Shown here one piece after another: positions 13,141-38,531 of a stretch of DNA of 64,000 bases. The stretch is taken from NCBI GenBank assembly GCA_025451235.1, contig JANWKT010000014.1, forward strand, positions 186,001-250,000. The letters are read 5' to 3'. Position numbers and translations under genes: made by a program. The DNA is from Flavobacteriales bacterium. Its GTDB lineage: Bacteria; Bacteroidota; Bacteroidia; CAIKAF01. Below the pieces are notes generated by a model that searched no databases, was not told where the DNA came from, and saw only the letters and a program-made list of their open reading frames with translations. The number at the start of each line of letters is the position of its first letter. Position 1 is the stretch's first letter.

Positions 13141-13160
13141 TTCTATAATTGCAAACCATC

Positions 13161-14498
13161 ATGATAAGCTCAATAATATTTATTGTAGTTTTTTTATCAG
13201 CATTTGCCTTTTTCGGGTTTAAGATCCTCAAGATCCGCAGGAATATATTACTGGGTAGGAATACTGATCTTTCGGGCAATAAAGGACAACGGATCAAGAC
13301 GATGTTAATGGTGGCTTTTGGCCAATCCAAGATGACGGCCCGTCCGATCCCTTTTATTATGCATTTTTTTATTTATGCTGCTTTTCTCATTACACAAATT
13401 GAGCTGATCGAAATTATGATTGACGGAAGTACAGGTCAGCATCGATATATATGGCATTTGGTGGAGGGGAGTTTTTTAGGCAGCATTTACACCTTTACCA
13501 TTAATTTTATTGAGATACTTTCGGTGTTGGCCTTTGTGGCCACTATTGTTTTTCTTTCACGCAGAAATATTATCAGGCTGGCCCGTTTTCAAAAACCTGA
13601 AATGAAAGGCTGGCCATCGAAGGATGCTAACATTATTTTGTTTGGAGAGATCACCCTGGTTACCTGCATTATGCTGATGAACAGTTCTGATGTTGCATTG
13701 CAAAGGCTGGGCGTATTTCATCCTACGGATACATTGATCATATCCAGGGCTATTGCAGATTTATGGGCGGGAATTCCCAAGGAGACTTTGCTCATCATGG
13801 AACGCATCGGTTGGTGGGGACATATCTTGGGGATCCTTGGTTTTATGGTGTATTTGCCTTTTTCGAAGCACTTCCATATTTTTCTTGCATTCCCTAATAC
13901 TTATTTCTCCAACTTATTACCCAAGGGACAGCTTACCAATCTTTCGGCAGTAACCAGTGAGGTAAAATTAATGTTGGATCCAACTGCTGATCCATATGCA
14001 GTACCGGCTCCTGATCAGAATGCGGCACCCGTAAAATTTGGTGCGAAAGATGTGCAGGACCTTACCTGGAAAAATTTAATGGATGCTTATTCATGTACGG
14101 AGTGTGGAAGATGTACTGCCGAATGTCCGGCCAATATCACCGGAAAAAAACTATCACCCAGGAAGATCATGATGGATACCCGTGATAGATTGGAGCAGGT
14201 AGGCAGAAATATTGATAAGCATGGAAAGGACCATCAGGATGGAAAATCATTGCTGTTTGATCATATTACCGAAGAGGAATTATGGGCCTGCACTTCGTGT
14301 AATGCTTGCGTACAGGCTTGCCCGGTTAACATCAATCCGTTAGAAATTATTATTGAACTCAGAAGAGATTTGATCATGGAGCAGTCAAAAGCTCCATCTT
14401 CGATCAATACAATGTTAAACAATATTCAAAACAATGGTGCTCCATGGCAGTTCTCTCCACAAGATAGAGCGAACTGGGCACAAGAGTTAAATACATAA
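13161..14498 (+). CDS. Membrane-bound 4Fe-4S oxidoreductase subunit (HdrC/NarI-like)
   Basis: The ATG at 13161 is preferred over an upstream TTG at 13149 because it lies right at the hydrophobic N-terminus and after the promoter. The 445-residue protein has about five transmembrane segments (residues 1-250), like nitrate reductase gamma/heme b membrane anchors. A C-terminal ferredoxin-like domain has two CxxCxxCxxxCP motifs (CTECGRCTAECP and CTSCNACVQACP) for two [4Fe-4S] clusters. With the CCG-domain protein at 14947 it should form a heterodisulfide-reductase-like complex exchanging electrons with the menaquinone pool. The electron donor and acceptor are unknown. Confidence 0.88.
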   Translation: MISSIIFIVVFLSAFAFFGFKILKIRRNILLGRNTDLSGNKGQRIKTMLMVAFGQSKMTARPIPFIMHFFIYAAFLITQIELIEIMIDGSTGQHRYIWHLVEGSFLGSIYTFTINFIEILSVLAFVATIVFLSRRNIIRLARFQKPEMKGWPSKDANIILFGEITLVTCIMLMNSSDVALQRLGVFHPTDTLIISRAIADLWAGIPKETLLIMERIGWWGHILGILGFMVYLPFSKHFHIFLAFPNTYFSNLLPKGQLTNLSAVTSEVKLMLDPTADPYAVPAPDQNAAPVKFGAKDVQDLTWKNLMDAYSCTECGRCTAECPANITGKKLSPRKIMMDTRDRLEQVGRNIDKHGKDHQDGKSLLFDHITEEELWACTSCNACVQACPVNINPLEIIIELRRDLIMEQSKAPSSINTMLNNIQNNGAPWQFSPQDRANWAQELNT

Positions 14499-14508
14499 AT
14501 CAGATAGT

Positions 14509-14934
14509 ATGAGCAACGATGAGAAATTAGTAGAACTAGTTGAGAATGGAAAAAAGGTGAGTCCGGTATTGCCTCCTGAAATTAAGAATTTTCTGATAGA
14601 TATTGATGGTACTGTTTGTGAAGATATTCCGAACGAAGAACCTGAGAGAATGGTATCGGCCCCTGCTTATCCGGAAGCGATCGAGATCATTAACAAATGG
14701 TTTGATGAGGGACATATCATTACTTTTTTTACTTCACGAACCGAAGAACACAGGTTGATCACAGAACAATATTTGCAGGAAACCGGGTTTAAATACCATG
14801 GTTTACTCATGGGTAAACCGAGAGGTGGAAATTATCATTGGATCGACAATCATATGGTACGTGCAACCAGATACGAAGGTAAGTTCACCGATCTGGTTAA
14901 AAAGCATGTTTCAATTGAGGTATTTGAAGATTAA
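14509..14934 (+). CDS. HAD-like hydrolase (small)
   Basis: The 141-residue protein has the HAD-superfamily motif I as FLIDIDGTVCED, motif II as FFTSRTEEH, and an aspartate-containing late motif in HWIDNHMVRATRY. It resembles proteins often labelled phosphoheptose isomerase in Bacteroidota, but no SIS domain is present, so that name is not used. It sits 10 nt after one Fe-S subunit and 12 nt before the other, so it is cotranscribed with them. The substrate is unknown. Confidence 0.72.
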   Translation: MSNDEKLVELVENGKKVSPVLPPEIKNFLIDIDGTVCEDIPNEEPERMVSAPAYPEAIEIINKWFDEGHIITFFTSRTEEHRLITEQYLQETGFKYHGLLMGKPRGGNYHWIDNHMVRATRYEGKFTDLVKKHVSIEVFED

Positions 14935-14946
14935 AAATATATATAC

Positions 14947-15741
14947 ATGGGTGCTACTCCGATAAAAGTTCCAACAATGGCCGAATTATTTGCAGCCGGA
15001 GAAACTGCGGATATTTTGTTCTGGGTAGGTTGCGCAGGGAGTTTTGATGACAGGGCAAAAAAAGTAACCAAGGCCATGGCTAAGATCCTGCATCATGTGG
15101 GTTTGAAATATGCTATTCTCGGAACGGAAGAAACCTGTACCGGGGATCCCGCAAAAAGGGCAGGGAACGAATTTTATTTCCAAATGCAAGCGTTGCAGAA
15201 TATTCAGGTGTTGAATATGTACGGAGTAAAAAAGATCGTGACCGCATGTCCACATTGTTTTAATACGCTTAAGAATGAATATCCGGAACTTGGAGGAGAC
15301 TATCAGGTGGTCCATCATTCACAGTTGCTTCAGGAATTGATCAATGCTGGAAAATTAAAAGTGGAGGGTGGATCCTTTAAAGGTAAAAAAATCACTTTTC
15401 ATGATCCTTGTTATTTGGGCAGAGCCAATGGTGTATATGAAGCTCCGAGAGAAGTGATATCAAAATTGGATATGGAGTTTACTGAAATGAAGCGAAGCAA
15501 GGCAAAAGGTCTTTGTTGTGGAGCTGGTGGGGCGCAAATGTTTAAGGAAGCAGAGCCTGGAAATAAAGAAGTGAATGTTGAAAGATCTGCGGAAGCTTTG
15601 GCCCTCCATCCAGATATTATTGCGGTGGGCTGCCCATTTTGTAATACCATGCTTACCGACGGAGTAAAACATTTTGAAAAAGAAGCAACCGTTAAAGTTT
15701 TTGATATGGCCGAGCTGATTGCTCAGGCGAATGATCTATGA
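14947..15741 (+). CDS. CCG-domain Fe-S oxidoreductase subunit (HdrB/GlpC-like)
   Basis: The 264-residue cytoplasmic protein has two cysteine-rich CCG domains: FWVGCAGSFDDR...TCTGDPAKR...CPHCFNTLKNEYP, and HDPCYLGRANGVYEAPR...LCCGAGGAQMF...CPFCNTML. In heterodisulfide reductase such domains hold noncubane [4Fe-4S] clusters. It is the expected partner of the membrane subunit at 13161, with the HAD-like gene between them. It overlaps the next gene in an ATGA. Confidence 0.88.
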   Translation: MGATPIKVPTMAELFAAGETADILFWVGCAGSFDDRAKKVTKAMAKILHHVGLKYAILGTEETCTGDPAKRAGNEFYFQMQALQNIQVLNMYGVKKIVTACPHCFNTLKNEYPELGGDYQVVHHSQLLQELINAGKLKVEGGSFKGKKITFHDPCYLGRANGVYEAPREVISKLDMEFTEMKRSKAKGLCCGAGGAQMFKEAEPGNKEVNVERSAEALALHPDIIAVGCPFCNTMLTDGVKHFEKEATVKVFDMAELIAQANDL

Positions 15742-18033: not shown

Positions 18034-18636
18034 ATGCAAGAAATTTGGGCGAAACTGCTCGAAACTACATGGATTGAAGCGGTTGCAATGATTTCAGGAT
18101 TATTGTTCCCTATTTTTGCAGCCTACGAGAAAAAAATATGCTGGCTGTTTGGGGGAATAAGTGCATTGACCTATGCCTGGGTATTGTATGAAGGGAAGCT
18201 GTATCAGGATGCTGTGCTGAGTATTTTTTATGTGGTGATGGCGGTGTATGGATACTTAATGTGGCAAGGTGTGATCAAGGCCAAAAAGCAACAGGTTAAA
18301 ATTTCGTATTCAAATCCTTTTACGGTTTTTATATATATTACTATTGGTTTGCAATACACCTTCCTGGGAGGGTATTGCTTCGACAATTTTACCGATGCAA
18401 GTTATCCGTATGTGGATGCTTTTGTTACCGGGTTTTCGTTGGTTGCTACCTGGCTCGAAGCAAAAAAGAAAATAGATAACTGGTATCTTTTCCTGGTAGC
18501 TGATGGAGTGGGGATATGGCTATTTTACCAAAAAGGACTCCTTCTTACCGCTATTCTTTATATTATATATTGTATTATCTGTTTATGGGGCATCTTTAGA
18601 TGGACAAAGCAAATAAAATTATCAAAATTGCAGTAA
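18034..18636 (+). CDS. pnuC: Nicotinamide riboside transporter PnuC
   Basis: PnuC takes up nicotinamide riboside by facilitated diffusion across the inner membrane. The 200-residue protein has about seven hydrophobic segments and the family regions FPIFAAYEKKICWLFGGISALTYAWVLYEGKLYQDA and WQGVIKAKK. The adjoining nicotinamide riboside kinase-like gene (overlap 37 nt) argues for nicotinamide riboside, not thiamine, as the substrate: trapping by phosphorylation drives uptake. Confidence 0.93.
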   Translation: MQEIWAKLLETTWIEAVAMISGLLFPIFAAYEKKICWLFGGISALTYAWVLYEGKLYQDAVLSIFYVVMAVYGYLMWQGVIKAKKQQVKISYSNPFTVFIYITIGLQYTFLGGYCFDNFTDASYPYVDAFVTGFSLVATWLEAKKKIDNWYLFLVADGVGIWLFYQKGLLLTAILYIIYCIICLWGIFRWTKQIKLSKLQ

Positions 18637-19151
18637 CAGGCCCTGAGTCATCAGGAAAGAGTTTTACTGCTGAGTACTTAGCGAGGGTATTTGATGGGTG
18701 GGTAGTACCCGAATTTGCCAGAGAATACCTGCTTCACCTTGACAGAGCCTATACTTACCAGGACATTGTTAATATTGCCAAAGCCCAACTGGATATTGAA
18801 AAAAAGGTAATGGTGGATGCCATTGAGGAAAAAGTGGATATTGTTTTTTTTGATTCCGAATTGATCAATACCAAAATATGGTGTGATGAAAAATATAATA
18901 AGTGTGAAGAGTTTATTATACAATCCATTTCTGAATCAAATTATGATCATTACTTATTGATGCGACCTGATATGGATTGGGTACCGGATCCATTGAGGGA
19001 AAACCCATTCGACCGCGATAGATTATTCGAGCTATATATTGAGCATCTTCATCGTTTTAAGAAAAGCTATACAGTTATTCAAGGAGAACTGGATGATAGA
19101 TTGAAACTCGCCATTTCAGTCGTAAAAACTTTTTCTTTGAAGCAGGGATAG
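18600..19151 (+). CDS. NadR-like nicotinamide riboside kinase
   Basis: The 183-residue P-loop kinase has Walker A GPESSGKS (residues 14-21), a PEFAREYL motif and a late LRENPFDRDRLFELY region, matching the kinase half of NadR. It phosphorylates nicotinamide riboside to NMN. The adenylyltransferase and HTH domains of full-length NadR are absent. It overlaps the 3' end of pnuC by 37 nt, so the two proteins are probably made together. Confidence 0.9.
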   Translation: MDKANKIIKIAVTGPESSGKSFTAEYLARVFDGWVVPEFAREYLLHLDRAYTYQDIVNIAKAQLDIEKKVMVDAIEEKVDIVFFDSELINTKIWCDEKYNKCEEFIIQSISESNYDHYLLMRPDMDWVPDPLRENPFDRDRLFELYIEHLHRFKKSYTVIQGELDDRLKLAISVVKTFSLKQG

Positions 19152-19169: not shown

Positions 19170-20510
19170 TTATATAGCCACTTGGAACTGCAAAATAACA
19201 GAGCTCTTTCTTTCCATTTGCGTAAAATTTACATTTTCATACACAGGTCTGTTTTGGTAATTCAATGTCATTTTATACCGATGACTATCAAATAGAAAAT
19301 TAATACCTGCATCAAAAGTGGCCATCACATCATTCAACCGATCCCACTTAGCCACTTGTGTACAAAAATATGGCATCATAGTAAAAGTTTTTTTGCCAAA
19401 CCATTTTTTGGGCAACATCAGTCCGGTTTGTAAATATCCGGTATGTCCGGTTCCAATCATTGGAAAAGCATTTCCTGTTCCATTAATAGTTGGAGTACCA
19501 GCCGCTATGGATTGACCTGGATTCATGACCCCGATCTGGCGTAAATAACCCGGACCAAAATTATAATAGTTATAGGCTCCATACAATGAAAATGCCCAAT
19601 CCTTGTTTTTTCCCAAGTAGGTATCGTAAAAAACATCTGCTCCAACTAAGAACATGTTGGCAAATGTGGTGTCCGTTCCCGTTCTGCTATACCACATAGC
19701 ATCTTGTTGAAATTGAAATCCTGTTCCAATATTCAATACTTTTTTAGTTCCATGATATGTTCCAATGGCATAAGGGGTTTGGTTACTCTCCTGATCAAAA
19801 AATTGAAAGCTAAGGTAGCCACTGGGTTGAATAGATCGACCAATGGGAGTAAAATTGGCATATTGTGAAATATTGGAGTCAAATAAATTACTGGAAGTAA
19901 TCGTAAAGGGATCAGCCAGTATAAACCGGTAGTCGAATTTCCAAACTTTTCCTTTTATGTATACGGCAAGTTTTCTAAAAAACTGATCCGTGGCATCGTT
20001 GGTGCTTTGTTGATATAAGGGAGCATCAATACCCAGGAAGCTGGCTATCCCTGGAGAAGAGAACCTGCTATGACCTGTCCACGCAGCCAGACCAGTCCCC
20101 AGGGATAAGGAGAAGGTTTTTGTTTTTACCGGGGTGTATTCTACAATGGCGTCATGAAAAAAATCTCCGAATTTTCTCGGTGACAATGCGGTAAAATTAT
20201 TGATCCCGAATTGAACATAGATGAGGAACTTTTCATGGATCTGTCCTATCACCTGAAACCTCAACCTACGAATTCCTATATCAAATGTCTGGGGTTTATT
20301 TACACTGTTTACCATGGTGCCGGGATTGCTCTCATTGAACCTGATCCAAACCTGGTTAGCAATCGTAAACTTAAAATATTTTGAGCCTTCTTTATTCAAA
20401 TTGAATTTCAGTTCCTTTTTTTCATCCGGATCTGTGGTTTGAGCTGATACCATTATATGCATTGATAAGCATAACAAGGCCATTGCAATGATTTTATTTT
20501 TTATCATCAT
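19170..20510 (-). CDS. Outer-membrane porin (OprO/P-like)
   Basis: The 446-residue protein has a signal peptide (KIIAMALLCLSMHIMVSAQ) and a beta-barrel of alternating hydrophobic strands, with aromatic-rich segments and a final strand ending in FQVAI. It resembles phosphate-selective or general porins of the OprO/P type. It lies 80 nt after the SulP gene, but a perfect -7 box (20540-20547) sits in the gap, so it may be transcribed on its own. The solute is unknown; anion passage would fit the neighbour. Confidence 0.82.
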   Translation of the reverse strand: MMIKNKIIAMALLCLSMHIMVSAQTTDPDEKKELKFNLNKEGSKYFKFTIANQVWIRFNESNPGTMVNSVNKPQTFDIGIRRLRFQVIGQIHEKFLIYVQFGINNFTALSPRKFGDFFHDAIVEYTPVKTKTFSLSLGTGLAAWTGHSRFSSPGIASFLGIDAPLYQQSTNDATDQFFRKLAVYIKGKVWKFDYRFILADPFTITSSNLFDSNISQYANFTPIGRSIQPSGYLSFQFFDQESNQTPYAIGTYHGTKKVLNIGTGFQFQQDAMWYSRTGTDTTFANMFLVGADVFYDTYLGKNKDWAFSLYGAYNYYNFGPGYLRQIGVMNPGQSIAAGTPTINGTGNAFPMIGTGHTGYLQTGLMLPKKWFGKKTFTMMPYFCTQVAKWDRLNDVMATFDAGINFLFDSHRYKMTLNYQNRPVYENVNFTQMERKSSVILQFQVAI

Positions 20511-20590: not shown

Positions 20591-22297
20591 CTAGTTAATC
20601 CGATGCTCATGATTGGGATCATCCTTCCTGGACCTGCTCGCCGGCCCTGAATTTCGTTCTTTGATCTGTTTTCTTACCGCTTTTGGCAGGAACATGGTGC
20701 TGAATTCATGTTTCGAAATATGCTTATGCCGATCGACCCCGGTAAATTCGCACCGGCCCCCTTCTTTTACATATTCTTTCTGAAAATCCTTAAAAGTTTC
20801 CATAGAGGTATGGTCGACCAAGAAGCATTCCGACAGATCAATAAATATGGTTTGCTGCTTAGGTAGTTTTTCCAGTTTTTTCATAATAAAAGGAAGATTG
20901 GTAACTACTGCCCCCCCTCTAATGTATACAATAGTGCGATCTTTATCTTCCAGGAACTCCATGTCAGTTGTAAAAGTATTTCGGATCGGGAGTCCTCCCA
21001 GGTAATGTATGGCAAATTTAATAGCCAATCCTATACCCACACCAATTAAAAGATCCGTACATAAAATGGCGATTGTAGTGGAAGCCATCACCAGAAGTTG
21101 CCACCAACCTACTTTAAATATTTGTACAAACTCTTTGATGGAAGCCAGCTTATATCCAACACCGATCAAAATGGCAGCTAACGCAACGTTTGGAATTAAG
21201 GTGATAAAATCAACCATCAGGATGACGAAAATGATCAGAAAAATTCCATGAAAGAAATTGGCCCACCTGGTTTTGGCACCACTGGCTACGTTGGCACTGC
21301 TCCGGGCCACTTCTGATATCATCGGTAAACCACCCAGCATACCTGCTACAGTATTTCCAATTCCAACCGCGATCAGGTCTTTATTGGCTTTTGACTTTCG
21401 CTTGAAGCGATCCAATAAATCTACAGCCTTTACGGTAAGCAATGATTCAGTGCTACCAATTAATGAAAACATGAGCACATACTTGATAAAAACCCCGGGT
21501 CTTGAAAAACCATCGAAACTAACATTTTTGAAATTTACTTCTTTAAAAAGATTGCCAACTTCCAATAAACCTCCTTGTATGTTCTTGAAACCTAATAGGG
21601 CTGCAAGTGGTATAGAGAGGATAAGTACTGCCAGGGGGGCTGGAATTTTTTTCAAGGTTTTATGTACGATAATTGGCCATCCAAAAACGATCATGAGGCA
21701 GATAATTCCAATTACGAAGATGATCTGATGCTCGTGATTTTCCTGGAGCACCCTCACTGTTTCGGGCAAGGCCTTAAATAATTCGATAGGTTCTACCAAT
21801 GGTTTTCCTGCCATGGGACCTTCGGCATGTACTGGATTTACTCCCATCAAAAGATGTAATTGTTTGGATAGAATGATAAATCCGATTGCTCCCAACATAC
21901 CATGCACTACCGTATGTGGGAAGTAGTCCACCAACTTTCCAAGTTTTAAAACACCTAACAATACCTGCAGTATAGAAGCAACCACAATGGCTCCGCATGC
22001 CATTGACCATCCGGATAAACCCCCGCCAAATTCACTTACACATCCGGCCACAATGACGATCAATCCGGCTGCCGGACCTTTGATCGTTAACGGAGAGCCC
22101 GATAAGATCGCAACTATGGTACCGCCTATGATGGCAGTTAGAACCCCCATAATGGGAGGGAAGTCTGATGCTTTTGCAATTCCTAAGCTTAATGGTAATG
22201 CCAATAAGGAAACAATTAATCCTGAGGTGAGATCTGCTTTCCAGTTTTCTTTAAGGCCTTTTAGTCCATCCGCAGGAATTTTCATTTGAGTTTTCAT
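20591..22297 (-). CDS. SulP family inorganic anion transporter with STAS domain
   Basis: The 568-residue inner-membrane protein has about 12-14 transmembrane segments (PLSLGIAKASDFPP in TM1 and GSPLTIKGPAAGLIVIVAG) and a C-terminal STAS domain (about residues 440-540; FIDLSECFLVDHTSMETFKDF). SulP/SLC26 members carry sulfate, bicarbonate, chloride or oxalate. Sequence alone does not fix the substrate. The 21-nt gap to the hydrogenase-like operon contains no promoter motif, so it is very likely cotranscribed with it. The function is probably coupled to that complex (inference). Confidence 0.93.
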   Translation of the reverse strand: MKTQMKIPADGLKGLKENWKADLTSGLIVSLLALPLSLGIAKASDFPPIMGVLTAIIGGTIVAILSGSPLTIKGPAAGLIVIVAGCVSEFGGGLSGWSMACGAIVVASILQVLLGVLKLGKLVDYFPHTVVHGMLGAIGFIILSKQLHLLMGVNPVHAEGPMAGKPLVEPIELFKALPETVRVLQENHEHQIIFVIGIICLMIVFGWPIIVHKTLKKIPAPLAVLILSIPLAALLGFKNIQGGLLEVGNLFKEVNFKNVSFDGFSRPGVFIKYVLMFSLIGSTESLLTVKAVDLLDRFKRKSKANKDLIAVGIGNTVAGMLGGLPMISEVARSSANVASGAKTRWANFFHGIFLIIFVILMVDFITLIPNVALAAILIGVGYKLASIKEFVQIFKVGWWQLLVMASTTIAILCTDLLIGVGIGLAIKFAIHYLGGLPIRNTFTTDMEFLEDKDRTIVYIRGGAVVTNLPFIMKKLEKLPKQQTIFIDLSECFLVDHTSMETFKDFQKEYVKEGGRCEFTGVDRHKHISKHEFSTMFLPKAVRKQIKERNSGPASRSRKDDPNHEHRIN

Positions 22298-22318
22298 GAA
22301 CGATGTGATAAATATTAA

Positions 22319-23080
22319 TTATTGCGATTTTATTTTTCTGGTCAATGTAAGGATGCCATTGATAAATGTGAGGGGATGCACCGGATTTCCAGGTACAAAC
22401 AAGTCTATATGTTTTCCATCTAAAAAACTTCGATCCAAGGCAGGGCTTCCTGCAAAGATTCCACCGCTGATAGCATCCGTTCCAACCAGGATGAGCAACT
22501 TCGGATCGGGTACAGCATCATAACAAATTTGGGTGGCTTCTGCCATATTTTTTGATATTGGCCCTGTGATAACAATCCCATCAGCATGTCTTGGACTGGC
22601 TACCCAATCAATCCCAAATCTCATCATGTCAAAGTTTGGATTAACGGTTGCATTTAATTCCAGCTCACTGCTATTGTCACCTCCGGCACTTATTTCTCTT
22701 AACCTAAGTGACCTGCCGAACAACGATTTTATTTCTTTTCTGATAAGGGACTGGTCAATTTTCAGGGGTTTATCTTCTCCCACTTGAATGATCAGGTCTT
22801 CCCGTTTATTGGTGGCAGTTTTATAATCATTTACAAATTTGATTTTATCTGGAAAGCGGAACATACATTCACCGCAAAAAGTACATTTACCCATATCGAT
22901 CTGTATCCCACTTTCTACCGAGATGGCGTCTGTAGGACAACAGCTCACCAAGGCTTGCTCATCCACTCTTTTAAGCGAAATAACAGGTCTACCTTTAAAG
23001 GTAAAAGGCAAAACAGGTTTAGTAACATCCGGGATGAACTGCTTACCGTGCTTTCTTAATATTTTTATTTCTTTTAGCAT
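22319..23080 (-). CDS. Ferredoxin-NuoB/HyfI fusion small subunit, clusters mostly lost
   Basis: The 253-residue protein joins a ferredoxin domain (about residues 35-80) to a NuoB/HyfI-type small subunit. In HycG-type proteins the proximal cluster is held by CxxCxE, YGxC and PGCPP. Here the equivalents are GGDNSSELE (Asp135, Ser138), VGTDAISGG (Asp202) and VPGNPV (Asn232), so all four ligands are absent. In the ferredoxin part C66, C69, C72 and C47/C48 remain, but the first triplet and the last Cys of motif 2 (Phe76) are gone, so one [4Fe-4S] cluster is possible. SPRHADGIVITGP and SGGIF confirm the family. It is cotranscribed with the large subunit (12-nt gap). Confidence 0.88.
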   Translation of the reverse strand: MLKEIKILRKHGKQFIPDVTKPVLPFTFKGRPVISLKRVDEQALVSCCPTDAISVESGIQIDMGKCTFCGECMFRFPDKIKFVNDYKTATNKREDLIIQVGEDKPLKIDQSLIRKEIKSLFGRSLRLREISAGGDNSSELELNATVNPNFDMMRFGIDWVASPRHADGIVITGPISKNMAEATQICYDAVPDPKLLILVGTDAISGGIFAGSPALDRSFLDGKHIDLFVPGNPVHPLTFINGILTLTRKIKSQ

Positions 23081-23092
23081 GCTTTCTTTGAA

Positions 23093-24613
23093 TTATAAAT
23101 CATGACCACAATAGGATAGATTATAGCTCTTGTTATTGATAGGAAAATCGCTGATCTCAAGATTTCTCAGCGACAAGGCCAAAGCCCACCAATTGTGCTG
23201 GGAGGGGTCTTTGATTTTATAATAACTAATGTTCCCTTCATCATCGGTAATGGCCGAATGAACTATTTCACCTCTCCATCCTTCGGTAACCGATATTGTC
23301 ATACAATTTTTGGCTAGCCGTATTTCCTCATCCTTAATAGGTGCTGGAACTGAATTCTGGTAGTTCATTATTTCTGTAATTCTTCTCAGGTATTTAATGC
23401 TTTGAAGGATTTCATAATGTCTAACTTGTATTCTTGCATAAATATCCCCGGTATCAAAAACTACGGGATCATGATGGATTTCATGGTATCCGGCAAACGG
23501 ATGACTCCAGCGTGTATCTCTTTTTAACCCGGCCATTTTAGCCGTGGTTCCTACTGCTCCGATCATATATACTTGTTTTCTTGTCAGTGTTCCTATTTGC
23601 TGAAAACGAAGAATGATGTCGGAAAGGTTGAGCATTTTATCTGCAATGACGGTATATCTTTCCTCCAGGTCATCCAAATAAGAAAGGAGTTTTTCTTGTA
23701 GGTCTCTGGTAAAAGGATAATTCGTTCCTCCCGGACGAATAAGACCTTTGGCAAATCTGTTTCCACACCAGGTTTGTAAAAAATTAATGGTGGGAGTTCG
23801 GAGTACACCAAGGGCAGCATTTCCGAGTTGGTAGGCAGCACCTGTACATAAATTGGAAAGATCAAAAATATGCATGCCGATCCTTTCGATTTCAAGAGCA
23901 ATTACTCTTTCATAATTTAATTTTTCCCGGATTTTTAAACCAGCCAGAGATTCGATGGCTTGAGAATAAGCAAGGGCATGGCCAACAGCGCTATCCCCAG
24001 CTATTTGTTCAGCCAGGGTAGCTCTCTGGATGAGTTTTTTCTTTTCCAGGAACAATGTTTCAATTCCACGATGCTGCCATCCTAATTGAACTTCCAGGTG
24101 CAATACTTTTTCACCATTACACAAAAACCTAAAATGACCTGGTTCGATAATTCCGGCATGAATGGGGCCAACACCTATTTCATGCAACTCATCCGTTTCT
24201 ATTTTATAGAATGGATAATCGGTTATCTTATCCATGCCTTGGATTTTCATATCATGTGAAAACCGAATCGGTTTTAAAAAATGATTGTCGGCAAACTCAA
24301 CTCCATATTTTTCATGGATCTCCCTTTCGAATGAATGAAATACATCATATTTAGGCATCATCGAATAAACTTTTAGAGGAGAACCTGCTGGAATGAGATG
24401 GGATATGATGGATATCGATTTATTTTGATCATCCGCGATGGCGCAAATGAATTTAAGCCCCTCCGATGTTGGATAAGCCAGGTAGGTGAGGATATGAAAA
24501 TCCTGCGACCTCAACAAAAAGGTAATCACCTCAAAAAACTTAGAATATGGGACCACCGGAATATCAGAGATCCTTACGGGTAGATTGTTTTTAGTTTCAA
24601 GTAATTTTTCCAT
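23093..24613 (-). CDS. NuoCD/HyfG-like large subunit without Ni-Fe ligands
   Basis: The ATG at 24613 was chosen because the upstream ATG lies inside the previous gene. The 506-residue protein fuses a NuoC-like domain (about residues 20-120, FEREIHEKYGV) to a NuoD/hydrogenase large subunit. The first CxxC of group 4 hydrogenases (RVCGIC) is replaced by QIAGDS (residues 203-208). At the C-terminus, DPCxxC is replaced by LSYCGHDL, leaving one Cys (502). HRGIE, RRITE-like segments and TEGWRGE remain. A hydrogenase activity is therefore unlikely. Ehr-type relatives are known to lack these ligands. Confidence 0.9.
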   Translation of the reverse strand: MEKLLETKNNLPVRISDIPVVPYSKFFEVITFLLRSQDFHILTYLAYPTSEGLKFICAIADDQNKSISIISHLIPAGSPLKVYSMMPKYDVFHSFEREIHEKYGVEFADNHFLKPIRFSHDMKIQGMDKITDYPFYKIETDELHEIGVGPIHAGIIEPGHFRFLCNGEKVLHLEVQLGWQHRGIETLFLEKKKLIQRATLAEQIAGDSAVGHALAYSQAIESLAGLKIREKLNYERVIALEIERIGMHIFDLSNLCTGAAYQLGNAALGVLRTPTINFLQTWCGNRFAKGLIRPGGTNYPFTRDLQEKLLSYLDDLEERYTVIADKMLNLSDIILRFQQIGTLTRKQVYMIGAVGTTAKMAGLKRDTRWSHPFAGYHEIHHDPVVFDTGDIYARIQVRHYEILQSIKYLRRITEIMNYQNSVPAPIKDEEIRLAKNCMTISVTEGWRGEIVHSAITDDEGNISYYKIKDPSQHNWWALALSLRNLEISDFPINNKSYNLSYCGHDL

Positions 24614-24617
24614 ACTT

Positions 24618-26039
24618 TTAAGGTAAAGTTGATACTGCCATTTCAATATGCTGGACTACCAGGTCTGGTTTTACAATTCCCAGGTAAAATACCACTACAA
24701 TTACCGCCAGTTGTATAGCCGATTCAAAGTTGCTTTTGCCCTTTTCATTGATCTCCTTTACTTCCGGTTTTCCCATAAGGATATGAAATACCCTCACCGA
24801 TAATCCATAAATAATAAATAACATCATGATGCCGATAACAATGGCCAACCACCAATATTGCGAATCAATGATGCTCCTGAAAATGAGAATTTCGCTGATG
24901 AACATACAGGATGGAGGAAATCCGATGATAGAAATAAAGCTCAGAAAGATCACAAGGCCACCCATAGGATTTATTTTTAGGTAAGCACCCATGTGGGCAT
25001 AATCCTTGTCTTTATAGATCCTGTGCATTTGGCTAAATTGAAAGAACAGGGTAGATTTAACCAACGAATGAATAATGAGATGCAGAATGGCTGCAAAGTA
25101 ACCCAAACCTCCGCATGCAAAAGTAATGATCACCAAAGCCGCATGTTCCATGCTGGAATACGCCATTAAACGTTTCACATTTCTTACTTTTAGCATATAA
25201 GCGACTACGAAGATCAATGATATCATCCCGATGATGATCAATACATTGTTCATCCAGCTAAATATGGAAGAGGGAGAGAATGCTTCATAGAATCTGTAAA
25301 TCGCAACGAAGCCAGAATTCATCACGACGGAAGATAACTTTGCACCTACCGGTGAAGGAGAAACATCTTTAGCATCAATATCCACATTGAATAAGGGTAC
25401 TAGCCCCATTTTTACACTGAACCCGGTGAGGATAAATATAAAACAGGCTTTTAGCCAGAAGGGATTGATGGCGGCAATTTTCTCTTTTATATTTTCATAA
25501 AACAATTCTTTAACCCCTATTTCAGTGGCACCAATACTGAGAAATAGAACTCCGGCAAATGCTATTGCGATACCAATAGAACATATAAATACATATTTCC
25601 AGGTTCCTTCTAAGGCATGCGTGGTCCGGTCATGATATATTAATAAAGAAAGTGCCAGGGTGGTGGCCTCCATAAACGCCCAAAGAACTCCAAAGTGATT
25701 GGCCAATAAGACTCCTGCAACCGACATGTTGAAAAGAATTCGTCCGAGGTTATGAAGTGAGATACTTTTCGGCAGGTCACCACGTGATTTATTATAGTTG
25801 TAATAATGAATGGTAGAAATTAAATCGACAATGGCTTGTATGATCAGGAAAATGATGCCAATCGCATCAGGTTTAAAATAGGTGGCCTCGGTTTCTCCAA
25901 TATGTACGTATGCGTAGCCTGCAAAGAAACAAAGGAACAAGGAATAGATGAACGTGATAAAATGACTGATGGCCGGCCTTTTGATCATGTAGGCCAGAAA
26001 GGCAAATATTACACTGGAAATTAAGAAGGCAACAATCAT
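24618..26039 (-). CDS. HyfF-like proton-translocating membrane subunit
   Basis: The 473-residue NuoN/HyfF-like protein has about 14 transmembrane segments. It keeps the residues expected for ion translocation: the Glu in WAFMEATTLALS, the Lys in SVKMGLVPLF, and the Lys in HSLVKSTLF. The motif LMAYSSMEHAAL is typical of antiporter-type subunits. It lies between the HyfE-like gene (2-nt gap upstream) and the large subunit (4-nt gap downstream). Confidence 0.9.
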   Translation of the reverse strand: MIVAFLISSVIFAFLAYMIKRPAISHFITFIYSLFLCFFAGYAYVHIGETEATYFKPDAIGIIFLIIQAIVDLISTIHYYNYNKSRGDLPKSISLHNLGRILFNMSVAGVLLANHFGVLWAFMEATTLALSLLIYHDRTTHALEGTWKYVFICSIGIAIAFAGVLFLSIGATEIGVKELFYENIKEKIAAINPFWLKACFIFILTGFSVKMGLVPLFNVDIDAKDVSPSPVGAKLSSVVMNSGFVAIYRFYEAFSPSSIFSWMNNVLIIIGMISLIFVVAYMLKVRNVKRLMAYSSMEHAALVIITFACGGLGYFAAILHLIIHSLVKSTLFFQFSQMHRIYKDKDYAHMGAYLKINPMGGLVIFLSFISIIGFPPSCMFISEILIFRSIIDSQYWWLAIVIGIMMLFIIYGLSVRVFHILMGKPEVKEINEKGKSNFESAIQLAVIVVVFYLGIVKPDLVVQHIEMAVSTLP

Positions 26040-26041
26040 TT

Positions 26042-26680
26042 CTAATCTTTTAATTTGGTTAACTCAGTTTCGTCGGTCGAATTAAAGTAATCCCTGATCT
26101 TATTGAAGAACATTCCCATGATCAGGATGGTAGAAAAAATATCAAGTAATATGGCGCCATTTACCAGGATAGGCATATCCCCACCAACAGAAAGTGCAAT
26201 CAGGAATATTCCATTTTCGATGATCATATACGAAACCAGGTGAGTGATAATATCTCTATGATTGATACCCAGGTAAAGCCCAATCATAATGGAGGAGATA
26301 GCTGCTGTGAAATATTTTATTTCAAGATGTTCATCGTGTATGTTTTCGACGATGGCAAATGAAATAATCACAATAATAGTTGCGATGATCACCGAAATAT
26401 AAGGTTTGAGATACATCCCGCTGTTTTTTGTTTTATTGGTACGTTTAATGACCCTTTGCATAAAAAGCGGAACGAAAATCGCTTTAAAGAACAAGGTCTC
26501 CACTAAAACGAAAACCAAATGTGCCCAATCGGCTTCCTTTAATTCACTAATCGCAACTAAGAAAATGATCAATCCCTGGATAAAAAGCACCTTCACATAG
26601 GTTTTTAATAACTCTATCTTCACCAAATAAATGAGTGAAACGATGTAGAGTAGAATGACCAGGTTGATTAAATAACTCAT
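26042..26680 (-). CDS. HyfE-like membrane subunit
   Basis: The 212-residue protein has six or seven transmembrane segments and resembles the hydrogenase-4 component E family (NuoK-like). Recognisable parts include HLVSYMIIENGIFLIALSVGGDMPILVNGAILLDIF. The gene order (HyfB, C, E, F, G, I) is as in hyf operons. It overlaps the HyfC-like gene by 4 nt. Confidence 0.86.
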   Translation of the reverse strand: MSYLINLVILLYIVSLIYLVKIELLKTYVKVLFIQGLIIFLVAISELKEADWAHLVFVLVETLFFKAIFVPLFMQRVIKRTNKTKNSGMYLKPYISVIIATIIVIISFAIVENIHDEHLEIKYFTAAISSIMIGLYLGINHRDIITHLVSYMIIENGIFLIALSVGGDMPILVNGAILLDIFSTILIMGMFFNKIRDYFNSTDETELTKLKD

Positions 26681-27591
26681 ACTACATTACTTTTAATGAT
26701 GATAATAACTATGTATAGAACAGCCGCTATTGCCGAAATACTTATAATGTACTGGGGGTTTCTTGCCATTTTATTTCTTGGCTTGAAAGATTCAAAAACT
26801 CCGATGCTGATGGCCAGCATAAATTGAAATACCATAAACAAAGGGATTTTATAATATAATGCAAGATGCCCTGGAATAACAAGATTGCATATCAATGACC
26901 CAAAGACAGCAAACTTGAAAGCTGAGGTAAGCTTGATCAAACCTAAATCAAAACCACTATGATCCAGCACCATTACCTCATGTACCATGGTTAACTCGAG
27001 GTGGGTGTTTGGATCATCTGTAGGGATTCTGCTATTTTCAATTAAAAGGAACATGAACAATATCAGTATCGAAATGGTGATCACAACGATCACAGATGCT
27101 ATGTGTTCGTTTTCGTAGATGGAAAGAAAAATGTCGTGAAAATTCGTATGACCCGTAAATATGCAAAGTGTTCCCATGAGAAGAAAAAAGGCAGGCTCAA
27201 GTAAAGCGTTGTACAACACTTCCCTATTGGCGCCCATTCCCTCGAATCCACTGGAAACATCCAATGCTGCGACGACCAGAATAAATCTTCCTAATCCGAG
27301 TAAGTATAGCATAAAAACGAAATCTCCGTCAAAAGAGAAAAAGGAAGGTTCGCCGGCAAATGGAATTAACAAAAAAGCGGTTAATACACAAGCAAAATTT
27401 ACCGAAGCCGAAATTTGAAACACGAAGCTGGATGAGTTACTGTATACACTTCCTTTTTTCAATAGTCGCCATGCATCGAAAATAAACTGATATATCTTGG
27501 GCCCTTTTCGTCCGGATAAAATAGCTTTTGTTTTATCAATGGTACCAGGATAAAGAAATGCGCAAATTAAAACCAAAAAGAAGGCTAACAT
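26677..27591 (-). CDS. HyfC/NuoH-like membrane subunit
   Basis: The 304-residue protein has about eight transmembrane segments and the NuoH/HyfC loop ENSRIPTDDPNTHLELTMVHEVMVLDHSG. That loop contains the acidic residues lining the channel that links the soluble arm to the membrane arm in complex I and group 4 hydrogenases. This linker is intact even though the redox subunits have lost their metal ligands. It lies 1 nt after the HyfB-like gene. Confidence 0.9.
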   Translation of the reverse strand: MLAFFLVLICAFLYPGTIDKTKAILSGRKGPKIYQFIFDAWRLLKKGSVYSNSSSFVFQISASVNFACVLTAFLLIPFAGEPSFFSFDGDFVFMLYLLGLGRFILVVAALDVSSGFEGMGANREVLYNALLEPAFFLLMGTLCIFTGHTNFHDIFLSIYENEHIASVIVVITISILILFMFLLIENSRIPTDDPNTHLELTMVHEVMVLDHSGFDLGLIKLTSAFKFAVFGSLICNLVIPGHLALYYKIPLFMVFQFMLAISIGVFESFKPRNKMARNPQYIISISAIAAVLYIVIIIIKSNVV

Positions 27592-27592
27592 C

Positions 27593-29608
27593 TTATATAA
27601 AATTAAATGCGGTTAACAATGCTATTAAAATCAAAAAGGCCAACGGATAGATAAGGTAATGCTGTATCCTACCTGTTTGAGCCAAACCGATTTTTGGTAT
27701 TTTTTGTAAAAGGAAATGGATAGGTCTCAGAATACTGTATTCCTCCAGCCGATCCTTGGTTTCCGTAGAAAATTTTCGTTCTCCAGGAAATATTTCCTCC
27801 TCTTTATAAAGTTGGAATGTGTTGGTTTCTTTTAACAACGGACTTACAATATGCTTTAATGGAGCGGCATAGGAAGTAGATGTATATTGATGTTTAGCAT
27901 CCCCTGCGCTATAGCCGCAACCCCAGGTGGGGCCATAGGATACCTTTACTTTCTTTTGCTGCCAATAGCGTATACCCAGGACGATAAATAGGATAGTAAC
28001 AAGAATAAAACTCAACAAACCGAATTTTTCGAAGACGGTCATTTGTGTTTCGAAGACCTCTTTATCCAGAGGCATATATTTAAATGCAGATAGTGCATGA
28101 GAAATTTCCGGTAAAAGAACGACCGGAGCCAGGCCTAATCCTAACATTAAAAACGTATTTAAAAAAGCTGGGAATAGCATCGTTCTTGGCGGTTCGTGTA
28201 AAGGTTGTGGATAAGTTTTTCTTGAAGTGCCTAAGAAGGATAATCCAAATGCTTTGGTAAGTGCATATACGCAGATCCCACCTGATATTGCCATCACAAT
28301 AATTGCCAGGATGGAAACAATGGAAACGAAGAAATTCCCACTGGCAATGGCTTTAAAAATGCCTTTATAGATAAGAAATTCTGAAACGAACCCGTTAAGT
28401 GGTGGTAAAGCGCATAACGCCAAACTTCCGATGAGAAAAAAAGCGGCCGTATAAGGCATCTTCTTGGCAAGTCCCCCCAGCTCATTGATATTTCTGGTTT
28501 CCGTAATTTTCTCAATATTTCCCGACAACATGAATAACATGGATTTATAGAGAGAATGATTAAGTACGTGAAAAATTGCACCTGTAAGGCCCAATACTGC
28601 CAGGGCATTGATATGAAATGCTTTTCCTAAGATGGATAATGATATTCCTAGGCATATGATCCCTATATTTTCAATAGAGGAATATGCCAATAGTTTTTTT
28701 ATATCCCTTTGAAAAACGGCCATTGAAATAGAAAATAAAATAGTGATCATAGAAATGATGGCCATGGTTAATCCAATCTCATATAATTGATATTGCACAT
28801 GAGTGAGGACCCTCAGAATTCCGTATATGCCCATTTTTATCATTACTCCGCTCATCATGCCAGAAACATAGGCTGGGGCAGCAGGGTGTGCATGTGGTAA
28901 CCAGGTATGAAATGGAATAAGTCCTGCTTTTATACTGAATCCAATAAAAAATACAAGGAACAATGGAAAGTTATTGTTGGACGAAAAATAATAAGGTAAA
29001 GCATCAAACCCCCATATCCCTGTTTGCTTATTGGCAATTAAGAATCCTGCCAATAAGAATAAAAAACCAATATGCATTTGAACCAGGTAGTTAATAGCTA
29101 TTTTCATAATCTTGGCTTTTTCGCCATGAAATGCTACTAGCACAAAGGATGAAAGTGACATCAGCTCCCAAATAAAAAGAAACATAAAGCCATCCTTCAA
29201 CATGGTGAGGAGGAGCATGCATAAGTATAACAGGAACAACGAAAAATAATGCATACTCATGCCTAAAGGACTTTTAACCCCCAGGTATCTTTTCAAATAT
29301 CCATGAGAATATACAAATGCTCCCAACGAGACAACATTGATCATGAGTATGAATAATGCCGTGATCTGATCTATAAATAGTTGAGGGATCAGGCTCCAAA
29401 AGCTGAAAACCTGCTCTGATATATTGAACGAAAGAGAGGTAACTTTTTCTTGGTGCGAAAAAATTACTCCCAATGCCCAGAAACTGGTAACAGTCATAAT
29501 GGCAAGGATCGGCAGCATGATGGCATAGTATTTCAATTTTATTGGAAAGAGAAATACCAGTAAAGACAATACAATGGCCGATTGAAATATGATTAAATCA
29601 ATTTGCAT
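27593..29608 (-). CDS. HyfB/NuoL-like proton-translocating membrane subunit
   Basis: The 671-residue protein has about 16 transmembrane segments and is the first gene of the operon. The translocation residues are present: Glu in FIWELMSLSSF, Lys in SIKAGLIPFHTWLPHAHPAAPA, and Lys in NHSLYKSMLF. The LLAYSSIENIGI motif and the C-terminal cytoplasmic or lateral extension match HyfB length. Only two antiporter-type subunits (this one and the HyfF-like) are encoded, with no HyfD and no separate HyfA. No hyp maturation gene lies in the window. Confidence 0.92.
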   Translation of the reverse strand: MQIDLIIFQSAIVLSLLVFLFPIKLKYYAIMLPILAIMTVTSFWALGVIFSHQEKVTSLSFNISEQVFSFWSLIPQLFIDQITALFILMINVVSLGAFVYSHGYLKRYLGVKSPLGMSMHYFSLFLLYLCMLLLTMLKDGFMFLFIWELMSLSSFVLVAFHGEKAKIMKIAINYLVQMHIGFLFLLAGFLIANKQTGIWGFDALPYYFSSNNNFPLFLVFFIGFSIKAGLIPFHTWLPHAHPAAPAYVSGMMSGVMIKMGIYGILRVLTHVQYQLYEIGLTMAIISMITILFSISMAVFQRDIKKLLAYSSIENIGIICLGISLSILGKAFHINALAVLGLTGAIFHVLNHSLYKSMLFMLSGNIEKITETRNINELGGLAKKMPYTAAFFLIGSLALCALPPLNGFVSEFLIYKGIFKAIASGNFFVSIVSILAIIVMAISGGICVYALTKAFGLSFLGTSRKTYPQPLHEPPRTMLFPAFLNTFLMLGLGLAPVVLLPEISHALSAFKYMPLDKEVFETQMTVFEKFGLLSFILVTILFIVLGIRYWQQKKVKVSYGPTWGCGYSAGDAKHQYTSTSYAAPLKHIVSPLLKETNTFQLYKEEEIFPGERKFSTETKDRLEEYSILRPIHFLLQKIPKIGLAQTGRIQHYLIYPLAFLILIALLTAFNFI

Positions 29609-29685: not shown

Positions 29686-30039
29686 TCAAATAAGAATAGA
29701 TCTGACCTGGATAAAAATGGGGATAGAATGATTGTATGAAATATTGGAGACTTGATGAATATAATTTGCCCCTAATATATTTTTAATATACTTATTTTCA
29801 AGAAGTACATTTTCAAAATCCGGAAATTTAAATTCAATATTTGACTTACTTTCTGTATCTTCAGATTCGCTTGAAACCTCAATAAATATAGGGGTTCTGT
29901 TATGATTGTAGTCGTTCGAATGTGTGGATGGATCATGAATGGTGGTGACGCATCTCCAATCTGTATTTTTTTCTATCTGAGCAAAAAAGCTGCTCAAAAA
30001 AATACTGAATAAAATAAAAATGGCAATAAACTTTTTCAT
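29686..30039 (-). CDS. Small secreted protein, unknown function
   Basis: The product of 117 residues starts at the ATG at 30039, chosen because the signal peptide KKFIAIFILFSIFLSSFFAQ follows it; an earlier ATG at 30057 is possible. The mature part is short, with an acidic Ser/Glu/Asp stretch (SSESEDTESK). No family is recognised. A -7 box lies at 30072-30079. The position directly upstream of the hydrogenase-like operon on the same strand may be chance. Confidence 0.6.
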   Translation of the reverse strand: MKKFIAIFILFSIFLSSFFAQIEKNTDWRCVTTIHDPSTHSNDYNHNRTPIFIEVSSESEDTESKSNIEFKFPDFENVLLENKYIKNILGANYIHQVSNISYNHSIPIFIQVRSILI

Positions 30040-36036: not shown

Positions 36037-36067
36037 ATCCTGTTCTTGAAAAAGGGCAGGATTTTTT
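36037..36067 (+). terminator. Rho-independent terminator (convergent)
   Basis: A 9-bp stem ATCCTGTTC / GGGCAGGAT (two G-T pairs) and 8-nt loop is followed by six T residues. It lies between the Cys-rich protein gene and the end of the murF-alr gene on the other strand. Confidence 0.75.
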
Positions 36068-38531
36068 ATTCCTGGGTGTAGATCCTACGTACCCTGAGAG
36101 AAATGGAGGTAAGCACTTCATAGGAAATCGTTTCCATAGACCTGGCAAATACTTCAATGGGGTGATTTTCCCCAATGATCTCCACACGGTCACCTACCGA
36201 GGCATTGATTTCTGAAACGTCAATCATGGTCATATCCATACAAACCCTGCCTACTACCAGCGCAGGTTGCCCATTTACATACATTTTGCCTTTACCGTTC
36301 CCTAAGCTCCTTCTGTATCCATCCGCATAACCGATAGGCACGGTAGCTATCACCATGTCTTTTTCTGCCAGATAACTTCTTCCATAACCCACCGATTCCC
36401 CTTTTTTAACCGAAGTAATCTGAGCAATGGTAGAATATAGAGCAATCACCGGTTGTAATTTTGCCTGTTCTTCCGCATCGGCACCCACTCCATATAATCC
36501 TACCCCCAACCTGATCATGTCGAAAGCTGCTTCCTTGAACCTACTAGCCCCGGCCGAGTTGGCAATATGTTTTAAAACAGGTTTCCCAATGGTCTTTTCT
36601 ACTTCTGACGATATTTTTTTGAAGAGTTCAATTTGTTGTAAAGTAAATTCATCCATTTCCGGTTCATCAGAAGCGGCCAAGTGAGAAAATATAGATTTGA
36701 TATGAACCTCTTTTTCTTTTTTGAGGATATCTAGTAATGTTTTGATCGTATCGGGGTTGAATCCCAGCCGATGCATACCTGTGTCTATTTCAATATGAAC
36801 AGGTGGAATACTTCCACTGTTCTTTTTATGTTCCAGTAATTGGGTTAGGTTTTCAAAATTATAAATAACCGGTTCCAGTTTCCTTTCTACCAGCAATTCA
36901 TAGCTGGTGGCTTCAGCATTCATTACCATTATGGGTAATTTTATTCCGTGGTTCCGCAATTCAATTCCTTCATCTGCATAAGCAACCGCGAGGTAATCGA
37001 TATGATGGAAATTGAGTATATGTGCAATTTCATGGGTACCAGTTCCATATCCTGAAGCCTTCACCATAGCCATGATCCGTGTACCTGCAGGGATATGTTT
37101 TCTATAATAGTTCAAATTATGCACCATGGCGTTCAGGTTCACCTCAAGGATGGTATCATGAACTTTATTCTCCAGCCTGGTTACAATTTTTTCCATTTCA
37201 AATATCCTGGCCCCTTTTACTAAAATGGCCTCATTATGAAAATTGAATTGGGATAAATGGTTCAAAAAATCACCTGCATTATTAAAAAAATGAGATCCAT
37301 CTGGGAAAACCTGCTTGTATTCACCAATTTCTGTACCGATCCCTATGATCCTGGATACCTTTTTTTGCTGAAGTATGTCAGAAATATTTTTATACAATTC
37401 TTCCTTTTTCGTTTTTGATTGGGCAATGTCTGATAGAATAATGGTTTTTTTATCAAATTGATAAAGGGAATCCAAACTATCCACTGCTATTTTAAAAGAA
37501 TCAAAATCGTTGCTATAGGTGTCATCAATAATAAAACAATTGTTCTTTCCGGTTTTAAAGGAAAGCCTCATGTTTATCCGGGGTAATAATTTCATTTGTT
37601 CGACCATTAAAGCCGTGTCGATACCAATATATTTGGCCGTAATAAAAACATGTATGGCATTTTCCAGTGAAGCAGGATCTGTAAACGGAATGGTAAAGCT
37701 AAAATTCTCATCACCAGAAGTAATGAATATCTCTGTATTTCCATGGGTCTTAATAAAGGATACATGATAATGCGAAGTATTGCCGCTTCCCCAGGAAATC
37801 ACTTTTTTTCGCGGATATAATTCCTTCACCATGGCTTCTATGGCAGGATCATCGTTTCGTAAAACGATACATTCTGCTCCTTTGAACAAAAGAAGTTTTT
37901 CGCTGATCTTTTCACTGATATTGGCAAAGTTTTCTTCATGGGCCGTACCGATATTGGTAAAAATCCCGATTGTGGGTCGAATGATCGGTTCCAACTTTTG
38001 CATTTCTCCTTTTTCAGAAATCCCGGCTTCGAAGATCCCTATTTCATTTTCAGGCTGAAGGTTCCATACCGAAATAGGAACTCCTACCTGCGAATTATAG
38101 CTTTTGGGGTTTTTGCAAACATTATAAGGGGCAGATAGTATGTGGCTCAGCCAATCTTTAACAATCGTTTTACCATTACTTCCTACAATTCCAACAATGG
38201 GGATATTGAATTGTTCCCGGTGATGGCCCGCCAGTTTTTGCAAAGCCGATAAGGTATCTTTCACCAGGATGAAACAACAACCGGGATGTTGATCCATTAT
38301 AACAGGATCGGAAATGATGAAATGTTGGATCCCGCTTTCAATCGCCTTTTGGATGTATTGATGACCATCATGGTGTGGACCTTTGACGGCAAAAAATATG
38401 GAGGACCCAGGGAAAATAATTTTTCGGCTATCGATCACCAGGTACAGGATCTTATCAGAATGGGAGGTACCGTAGACAGTACCCCCAACTATTTCTGCTA
38501 TTTGTTGAATAGTATATTTCTCCCCCTTCAT
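36066..38531 (-). CDS. MurF-alanine racemase fusion
   Basis: The 821-residue bifunctional enzyme makes the D-Ala-containing pentapeptide of peptidoglycan. The N-terminal MurF half (about residues 1-450) has the P-loop [10 protein letters not shown] and the later [11 protein letters not shown] region. The C-terminal half (about 455-821) is a PLP-dependent alanine racemase with the Lys in [10 protein letters not shown] and the [10 protein letters not shown] segment. This fusion is a known Bacteroidota arrangement. It is transcribed after tdk with a 4-nt overlap, which is less expected. Confidence 0.94.

Follow-up and report, generated by a model that had tools for sequence, protein, structure and literature searches.

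The 64,000-nucleotide stretch of a Flavobacteriales bacterium genome analysed here (assembly GCA_025451235.1, contig JANWKT010000014.1, positions 186,001 to 250,000; hereafter "the window") carries an operon of seven minus-strand genes (29608-20591) encoding hydrogenase 4-like subunits and a SulP anion transporter. Read in the direction of transcription, these genes encode a 671-residue HyfB-like antiporter subunit of the NuoL/M type (27593-29608; NCBIfam hydrogenase 4 subunit B, 2.6e-139), a 304-residue HyfC-like, NuoH-type protein (26677-27591; Pfam NADHdh, 2.7e-27; HycD of formate hydrogenlyase [FHL], 4e-19), a 212-residue HyfE-like, NuoK-type protein (26042-26680; NCBIfam hydrogenase 4 membrane subunit, 2.9e-19) whose start overlaps the HyfC stop, a 473-residue HyfF-like, NuoN-type antiporter subunit (24618-26039; Pfam Proton_antipo_M, 2.6e-36; alignment to 6u8y_H), a 506-residue HyfG-like large subunit of the NuoC/NuoD-HycE type (23093-24613; Pfam Complex1_49kDa, 3.6e-29; alignment to FHL HycE, 7z0s_E), a 253-residue ferredoxin-HyfI fusion (22319-23080; Pfam Oxidored_q6, 3.5e-18; alignments and ligand table) and a 568-residue SulP with a STAS-like tail (20591-22297; Pfam Sulfate_transp, 3.9e-60; genomic context and tree). 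For HyfG, the likeliest start is the ATG at 24613, as a longer form starting at a TTG at 24646 would overlap HyfF. Gene content, order, strand and coordinates all agree with an initial annotation of this locus when checked against Pfam and NCBIfam matches and open reading frame (ORF) positions.

Adjacent ends of these seven genes either overlap or lie no more than 25 nt apart, with 21 nt between HyfI and SulP, and this spacing suggests that the Hyf genes and SulP share one transcript. An eighth gene on the same strand, 80 nt after SulP, encodes a 446-residue outer-membrane barrel (19170-20510) with a predicted signal helix followed by beta strands; it matches no Pfam family and shows a weak NCBIfam porin match (3.6e-7) below the cut-off. 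The next gene downstream is convergent. Upstream of HyfB, a minus-strand ORF for a small exported or membrane-anchored protein of about 117 residues (29686-30039), with 36% identity to a 132-residue ORF beside HyfB in the same genus, probably opens the unit, a tentative assignment. While the HyfI-SulP gap had been described as free of promoter motifs, a sigma-70-like match at 22345-22318 does overlap it; with 40 such matches found overall against 40.0 expected, however, the scan is uninformative. A Bacteroidota-type promoter pattern was no commoner than chance in the same search, and terminator matches were likewise not above chance.

The soluble arm has lost most, not all, of its redox ligands. 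Aligned with FHL HycE, window HyfG retains none of the four Ni-Fe cysteines, the positions being occupied by Ala and Ser/Thr in motif L1 and by Ser and Gly in motif L2; the L2 Ser and Gly, in place of cysteines 3 and 4, are fixed throughout the family alignment, and the four-cysteine set was found in no homologue examined. Conserved instead are the motifs IAGD[ST]xxGH (L1) and SYCGHDL (at the C-terminus), with an invariant Asp, Ser, Gly and Asp in the pocket across the family alignment, and the window protein ends with the L2 motif, no maturation peptide following it. For the iron-sulfur clusters of HyfI, we use the names N6a, N6b and N2 and the ligand assignments that we take to follow from established complex I structures. 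The N6b-type [4Fe-4S] cluster, next to N2, keeps its four ligands (the CxxCxxC of motif II together with the final Cys of motif I) in all 90 of the 90 ferredoxin-HyfI homologues, so that the initial description of the complex as "redox-dead" does not hold in full. Its narrower statement that nearly all redox ligands are missing is accurate for Ni-Fe, for N6a (0/4 in the window, and lost as well in 53 of 60 members lacking N2) and for N2 (0/4, replaced by D-S-D-N), with N6b as the exception. Across the 60 N2-less members, the N2 positions hold Asp (58/60), a second residue that varies (Cys in 46 members and Ser in the window), Asp (56/60) and Asn (57/60), and the remaining 30 homologues hold all four cysteines (CCCC). 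Because Asp-x-Asp-Asn is conserved to this degree, the alignment indicates that it is a selected replacement of the N2 ligands and not decay. On the same ligand pattern, the electron wire is predicted to be interrupted on both sides of the one remaining cluster.

The membrane arm was reported initially to have intact ion-translocation residues, which is largely what we found. The closest solved chains to HyfB are FHL HycC and MbhH of the membrane-bound hydrogenase (MBH), with the transmembrane (TM) Glu and Lys positions of the ion path aligning, and the HyfC ion-path residues inspected also align with their FHL and MBH counterparts; HyfF, on the other hand, carries Asn in place of the TM8 lysine.

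Searches of the phylum and of the family, together with a scan of genome contigs, yielded about 90 Hyf loci, 77 of which had enough downstream DNA to test for SulP. Besides the window, a SulP gene directly follows HyfI in four of the 77 (L043, from the same genus, L033, L048 and L081), so that the linkage extends beyond this genome; the probability of four such cases by chance is about 4e-7 or less even at five SulPs per genome. In two further loci (L036 and L037), a distant SulP is encoded upstream of the Hyf genes, and in L042 a gene for a SulP-STAS-EIIA fusion separates HyfG from HyfI. The Hyf tree unites the window with L043, L048 and L081 in a supported clade and places L033 on a branch close to the base of the Bacteroidota sequences. 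The initial annotation had tied redox-ligand loss to SulP and had regarded metal-binding cysteines in a relative with the same gene order as contrary to that idea. Such a relative exists: L033, 57% identical, has the window's B-C-E-F-G-I-SulP-barrel order with all twelve Fe-S cysteines intact, and since it keeps both, SulP pairing does not follow from redox loss and, judged from these sequences, is independent of it. In five Ignavibacteria-type Ehr (energy-converting hydrogenase-related) loci, HyfB is preceded by a gene for a helix-turn-helix protein with a phosphotransferase system (PTS) EIIA-like domain (L036 2457-3131, L037 2534-3208, L034 18904-19572, L038 16011-16700 and L039 2400-3071); this 222-229-residue product was considered as a carbonic anhydrase and rejected. 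Together with the L042 fusion, the gene hints at PTS-type regulation of Ehr and SulP.

The SulP itself provides the closest tie to inorganic-carbon uptake. In a survey of 292 genomes, we compared the ten SulPs closest to that of the window with 89 more distant ones. Among the ten, two are Hyf-linked (the window and G101), seven have at most 8 kb between them and DabA (PF10070, confirmed by Pfam for six and by genome search for all seven), a subunit of the energy-coupled CO2 pump DabA-DabB (DAB), and for one (G190) the distance is about 100 kb; none of the 89 has DabA nearby (Fisher p 6e-10, or 5e-5 when restricted to DabA-bearing genomes). Hyf-linked and DAB-linked members are interleaved in one well-supported clade of the SulP tree, forcing the Hyf-linked SulPs into a single clade costs 368 log units (approximately unbiased [AU] test p 6e-32), and the tree contains at least three partner switches between Hyf and DAB; the L048 SulP, which is Hyf-linked, shares 73% identity with a DAB-linked SulP. 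Within the window's own family, three genomes (G307, G304 and G296, the last with a SulP of the distant type) have DabA-DabB-SulP where the window genus has Hyf-SulP. Both systems may also occur side by side. In the Cyclobacteriaceae metagenome-assembled genome G314, two contig ends overlap by about 60 identical bases within HyfB, and a divergent, head-to-head DabA-DabB pair almost certainly lies about 2 kb from a Hyf-SulP-barrel operon; in G346, the DAB and Hyf-SulP operons appear to share one contig, as suggested by an identical size of 71,544 bases. Mutual exclusion of Hyf and DAB, considered when DabA was found in 0 of 14 Hyf genomes, was rejected after DabA was found in 3 of 50 more, including both SulP-linked ones. 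The window SulP is a PF00916 member (204 bits against a cut-off of 23.2) that falls below the NCBIfam cut-offs for sulP (184 against 380 bits) and for the BicA equivalog (117 against 880 bits), and it retains a coupling acidic residue (Glu in GSTESLLT). By these comparisons, it is a member of a DAB-associated SulP subfamily, and the parallel with DAB that had been proposed at the outset is strongly supported.

The barrel gene follows SulP in both Hyf and DAB contexts, with homologues beside DAB-SulP in L154, L155 and L163; its predicted structure is beta-rich, at low confidence (mean predicted local distance difference test score 46). In L048, a 186-residue protein encoded between SulP and the barrel (8183-8743) shows a sub-threshold beta-carbonic anhydrase match (E 1e-4, below the curated cut-off). 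Small ORFs stand beside both Hyf-SulP and DabA operons (window 29686-30039, L043 2501-2899, L165 4726-5118 and L168 3617-3973); they are fast-evolving, with an N-terminal hydrophobic segment and often a similar C-terminal end, and their mutual similarity is weak. Those of like build in DAB operons precede DabA and show weak similarity to the window ORF.

We thus consider that an Ehr-type complex takes the place that the DabA-DabB pump holds in related bacteria. Position and cassette sharing make a DAB-like job the most likely one for the Hyf complex, and an inorganic-carbon role for the operon is somewhat favored. As an overall explanation, a CO2/HCO3- uptake module with the complex in the DAB position stands at about even probability. 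The porin-like barrel would let the anion through the outer membrane and SulP would most likely import bicarbonate through the inner membrane; protons (or Na+) would pass HyfB, HyfF and HyfC and power a reaction without redox chemistry in the altered soluble arm, an ion gradient being the natural energy source because the electron path is incomplete. Both the substrate of SulP and the link between the complex and a proton (or Na+) gradient are inferences. The reaction would probably be one-way hydration of CO2 to bicarbonate, with candidate sites in the HyfG pocket that formerly held Ni-Fe (from IAGD..GH, the Asp and His; from SYCGHDL, the Cys, His and Asp) and at Asp-x-Asp-Asn of HyfI, and the lone N6b cluster may be structural or regulatory. 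DAB-like chemistry of this specific kind is rather less likely than the general role. A third kind of energy-coupled inorganic-carbon pump, ion-driven and built on an Ehr/hydrogenase-4 scaffold in which the dead Ni-Fe pocket or the Asp-x-Asp-Asn site hydrates CO2, is slightly more doubtful still.

Several observations weigh against this proposal. The window operon contains no DabA or carbonic anhydrase gene, and DabA was found nowhere in the window genome. That genome has two beta-carbonic anhydrase genes, one fused to another SulP (L162 7617-9866, G000:C19), and such genes occur in about half of 50 Hyf carriers (a figure that has no background sample for comparison), so that carriers are not short of the enzyme. 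No RuBisCO large subunit was found in the window genome; because beta-carbonic anhydrase genes are present and RuBisCO is absent, carbon taken up would go to anaplerosis or pH control and not to autotrophy based on RuBisCO. Most Hyf loci of the N2-less clade have no adjoining SulP, N2-containing relatives also have the HyfG pocket residues for the most part, a Zn site in the window complex would have to be built from what are candidate residues only, and, as L033 pairs the SulP-barrel cassette with an Fe-S-complete complex, a redox-driven pump could serve equally well.

In the main rival explanation, a redox-silent or weakly redox ion translocator (Mrp- or complex I-like) maintains a proton/Na+ gradient or pH, and SulP and the barrel import bicarbonate on it with no CO2 chemistry. 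The retained ion-path residues of HyfB and HyfC, the coupling Glu of SulP and the redox-intact complex of L033 fit this explanation; with N6a and N2 lost, however, no complete electron path is left to power pumping, and the strict conservation of the HyfG pocket looks as if a reaction persists there. We therefore regard it as possible, at roughly half the weight of the uptake module. The absence of SulP from most carriers of the same clade, the patchiness of the linkage and the disagreement between the SulP and Hyf trees would be expected if the complex had an unrelated function (e.g., ferredoxin-linked, or sensory via N6b) and the SulP cassette had been acquired alongside it, with only the transcript shared. 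Yet the downstream SulPs are far more frequent than chance allows and all belong to one subfamily, and DAB and Hyf-SulP stand in one locus or contig in two genomes, which makes this explanation unlikely. Import of sulfate (or another anion), with the complex energising uptake, had been put forward initially as an alternative to bicarbonate. It agrees with the family name and with the Pfam model, both of which are of sulfate permeases; the operon, however, contains no sulfur-assimilation gene, the closest relatives of the SulP are linked to DAB, and its score falls short of the NCBIfam sulP cut-off as well as of that for BicA. This analysis found no support for sulfate as substrate, and we consider it very improbable.

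Found in many phyla, Ehr complexes still lack an established function, and a tie to a DAB-type transporter cassette gives one lineage a testable role. If the proposed role is correct, CO2 capture by complex I relatives extends beyond cyanobacterial NDH-1MS and DAB, and the replacement of N2 by Asp-x-Asp-Asn would represent a natural experiment on a redox pump turning non-redox. Other genes in the window encode a Fer4-dicluster protein and, next to it, a CCG-domain protein, which together make up a redox pair of LutB/HdrB-like type on the other strand upstream (13149-15741); a PnuC-type nicotinamide mononucleotide transporter, whose gene overlaps that of a small P-loop kinase, the two forming a pair for NAD salvage (18034-19151); a MurF-alanine racemase fusion (36066-38531); and, in this genome without RuBisCO, a tandem AAA protein whose lid domains are of the CbxX type (AAA_lid_6; 52072-54720).

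Among known systems, FHL, hydrogenase 4 and MBH share the subunit set and, by sequence, the fold of the window complex (HycE, HycG, HycC and HycD are among its best solved relatives), whereas the window has no Ni-Fe, N2 or N6a ligands, no formate dehydrogenase and no maturation peptide; its HyfG lacks the L1 CxxC and L2 CxxC of a group 4 [NiFe] hydrogenase. Respiratory complex I differs in that the operon contains no NuoEFG and lacks N2 ligands; a separate NuoB is encoded elsewhere in the genome. Cyanobacterial NDH-1MS, which is also related to complex I and has been proposed to use membrane energy for hydrating CO2, has a subunit set unlike that of the window, in whose operon no CupA/CupB-type subunit was recognised, though no dedicated search was made and all eight genes are otherwise assigned. 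BicA and carboxysome-linked SulPs share the PF00916 family with the window SulP, which belongs instead to the distant, DAB-associated subfamily and has Glu at the cation site where BicA presumably has Asp. Some SulPs transport bicarbonate and rescue carbonic anhydrase-free E. coli (PMC12628692). Ehr complexes, described for example in Nitrospira and Riflemargulisbacteria, are of the group 4 hydrogenase type, lack Ni-Fe ligands and have unknown function (PMC10284858, PMC6349859), and Acidithiobacillus large subunits, described as hydrogenase-like without growth on hydrogen, carry the same motif pair as window HyfG (SGD[TS].. and NLSYSGHDL; PMC6002666). The window operon, with its group 4-type subunit set without Ni-Fe ligands, is of the Ehr type, although its clade also lacks N6a and has Asp-x-Asp-Asn for N2, while non-Bacteroidota relatives have an Fe-S chain with proximal N2, and in its lineage the operon extends to a DAB-type SulP and the barrel gene. 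The absence of Ni-Fe ligands from Ehr complexes is already known; neither the N2 replacement nor a linkage of SulP with Ehr or with DAB was found described in the open-access literature searched. In DAB2, a NuoL-like protein and a Zn carbonic anhydrase form a complex that hydrates CO2 one-way, driven by the proton-motive force (PMC13144422). The window operon differs from DAB/DAC in lacking DabA and in having five further complex I-type subunits and no recognisable carbonic anhydrase fold, but resembles it in combining a NuoL-like membrane subunit with a soluble subunit and, in Bacteroidota, in adjoining the same SulP-barrel cassette.

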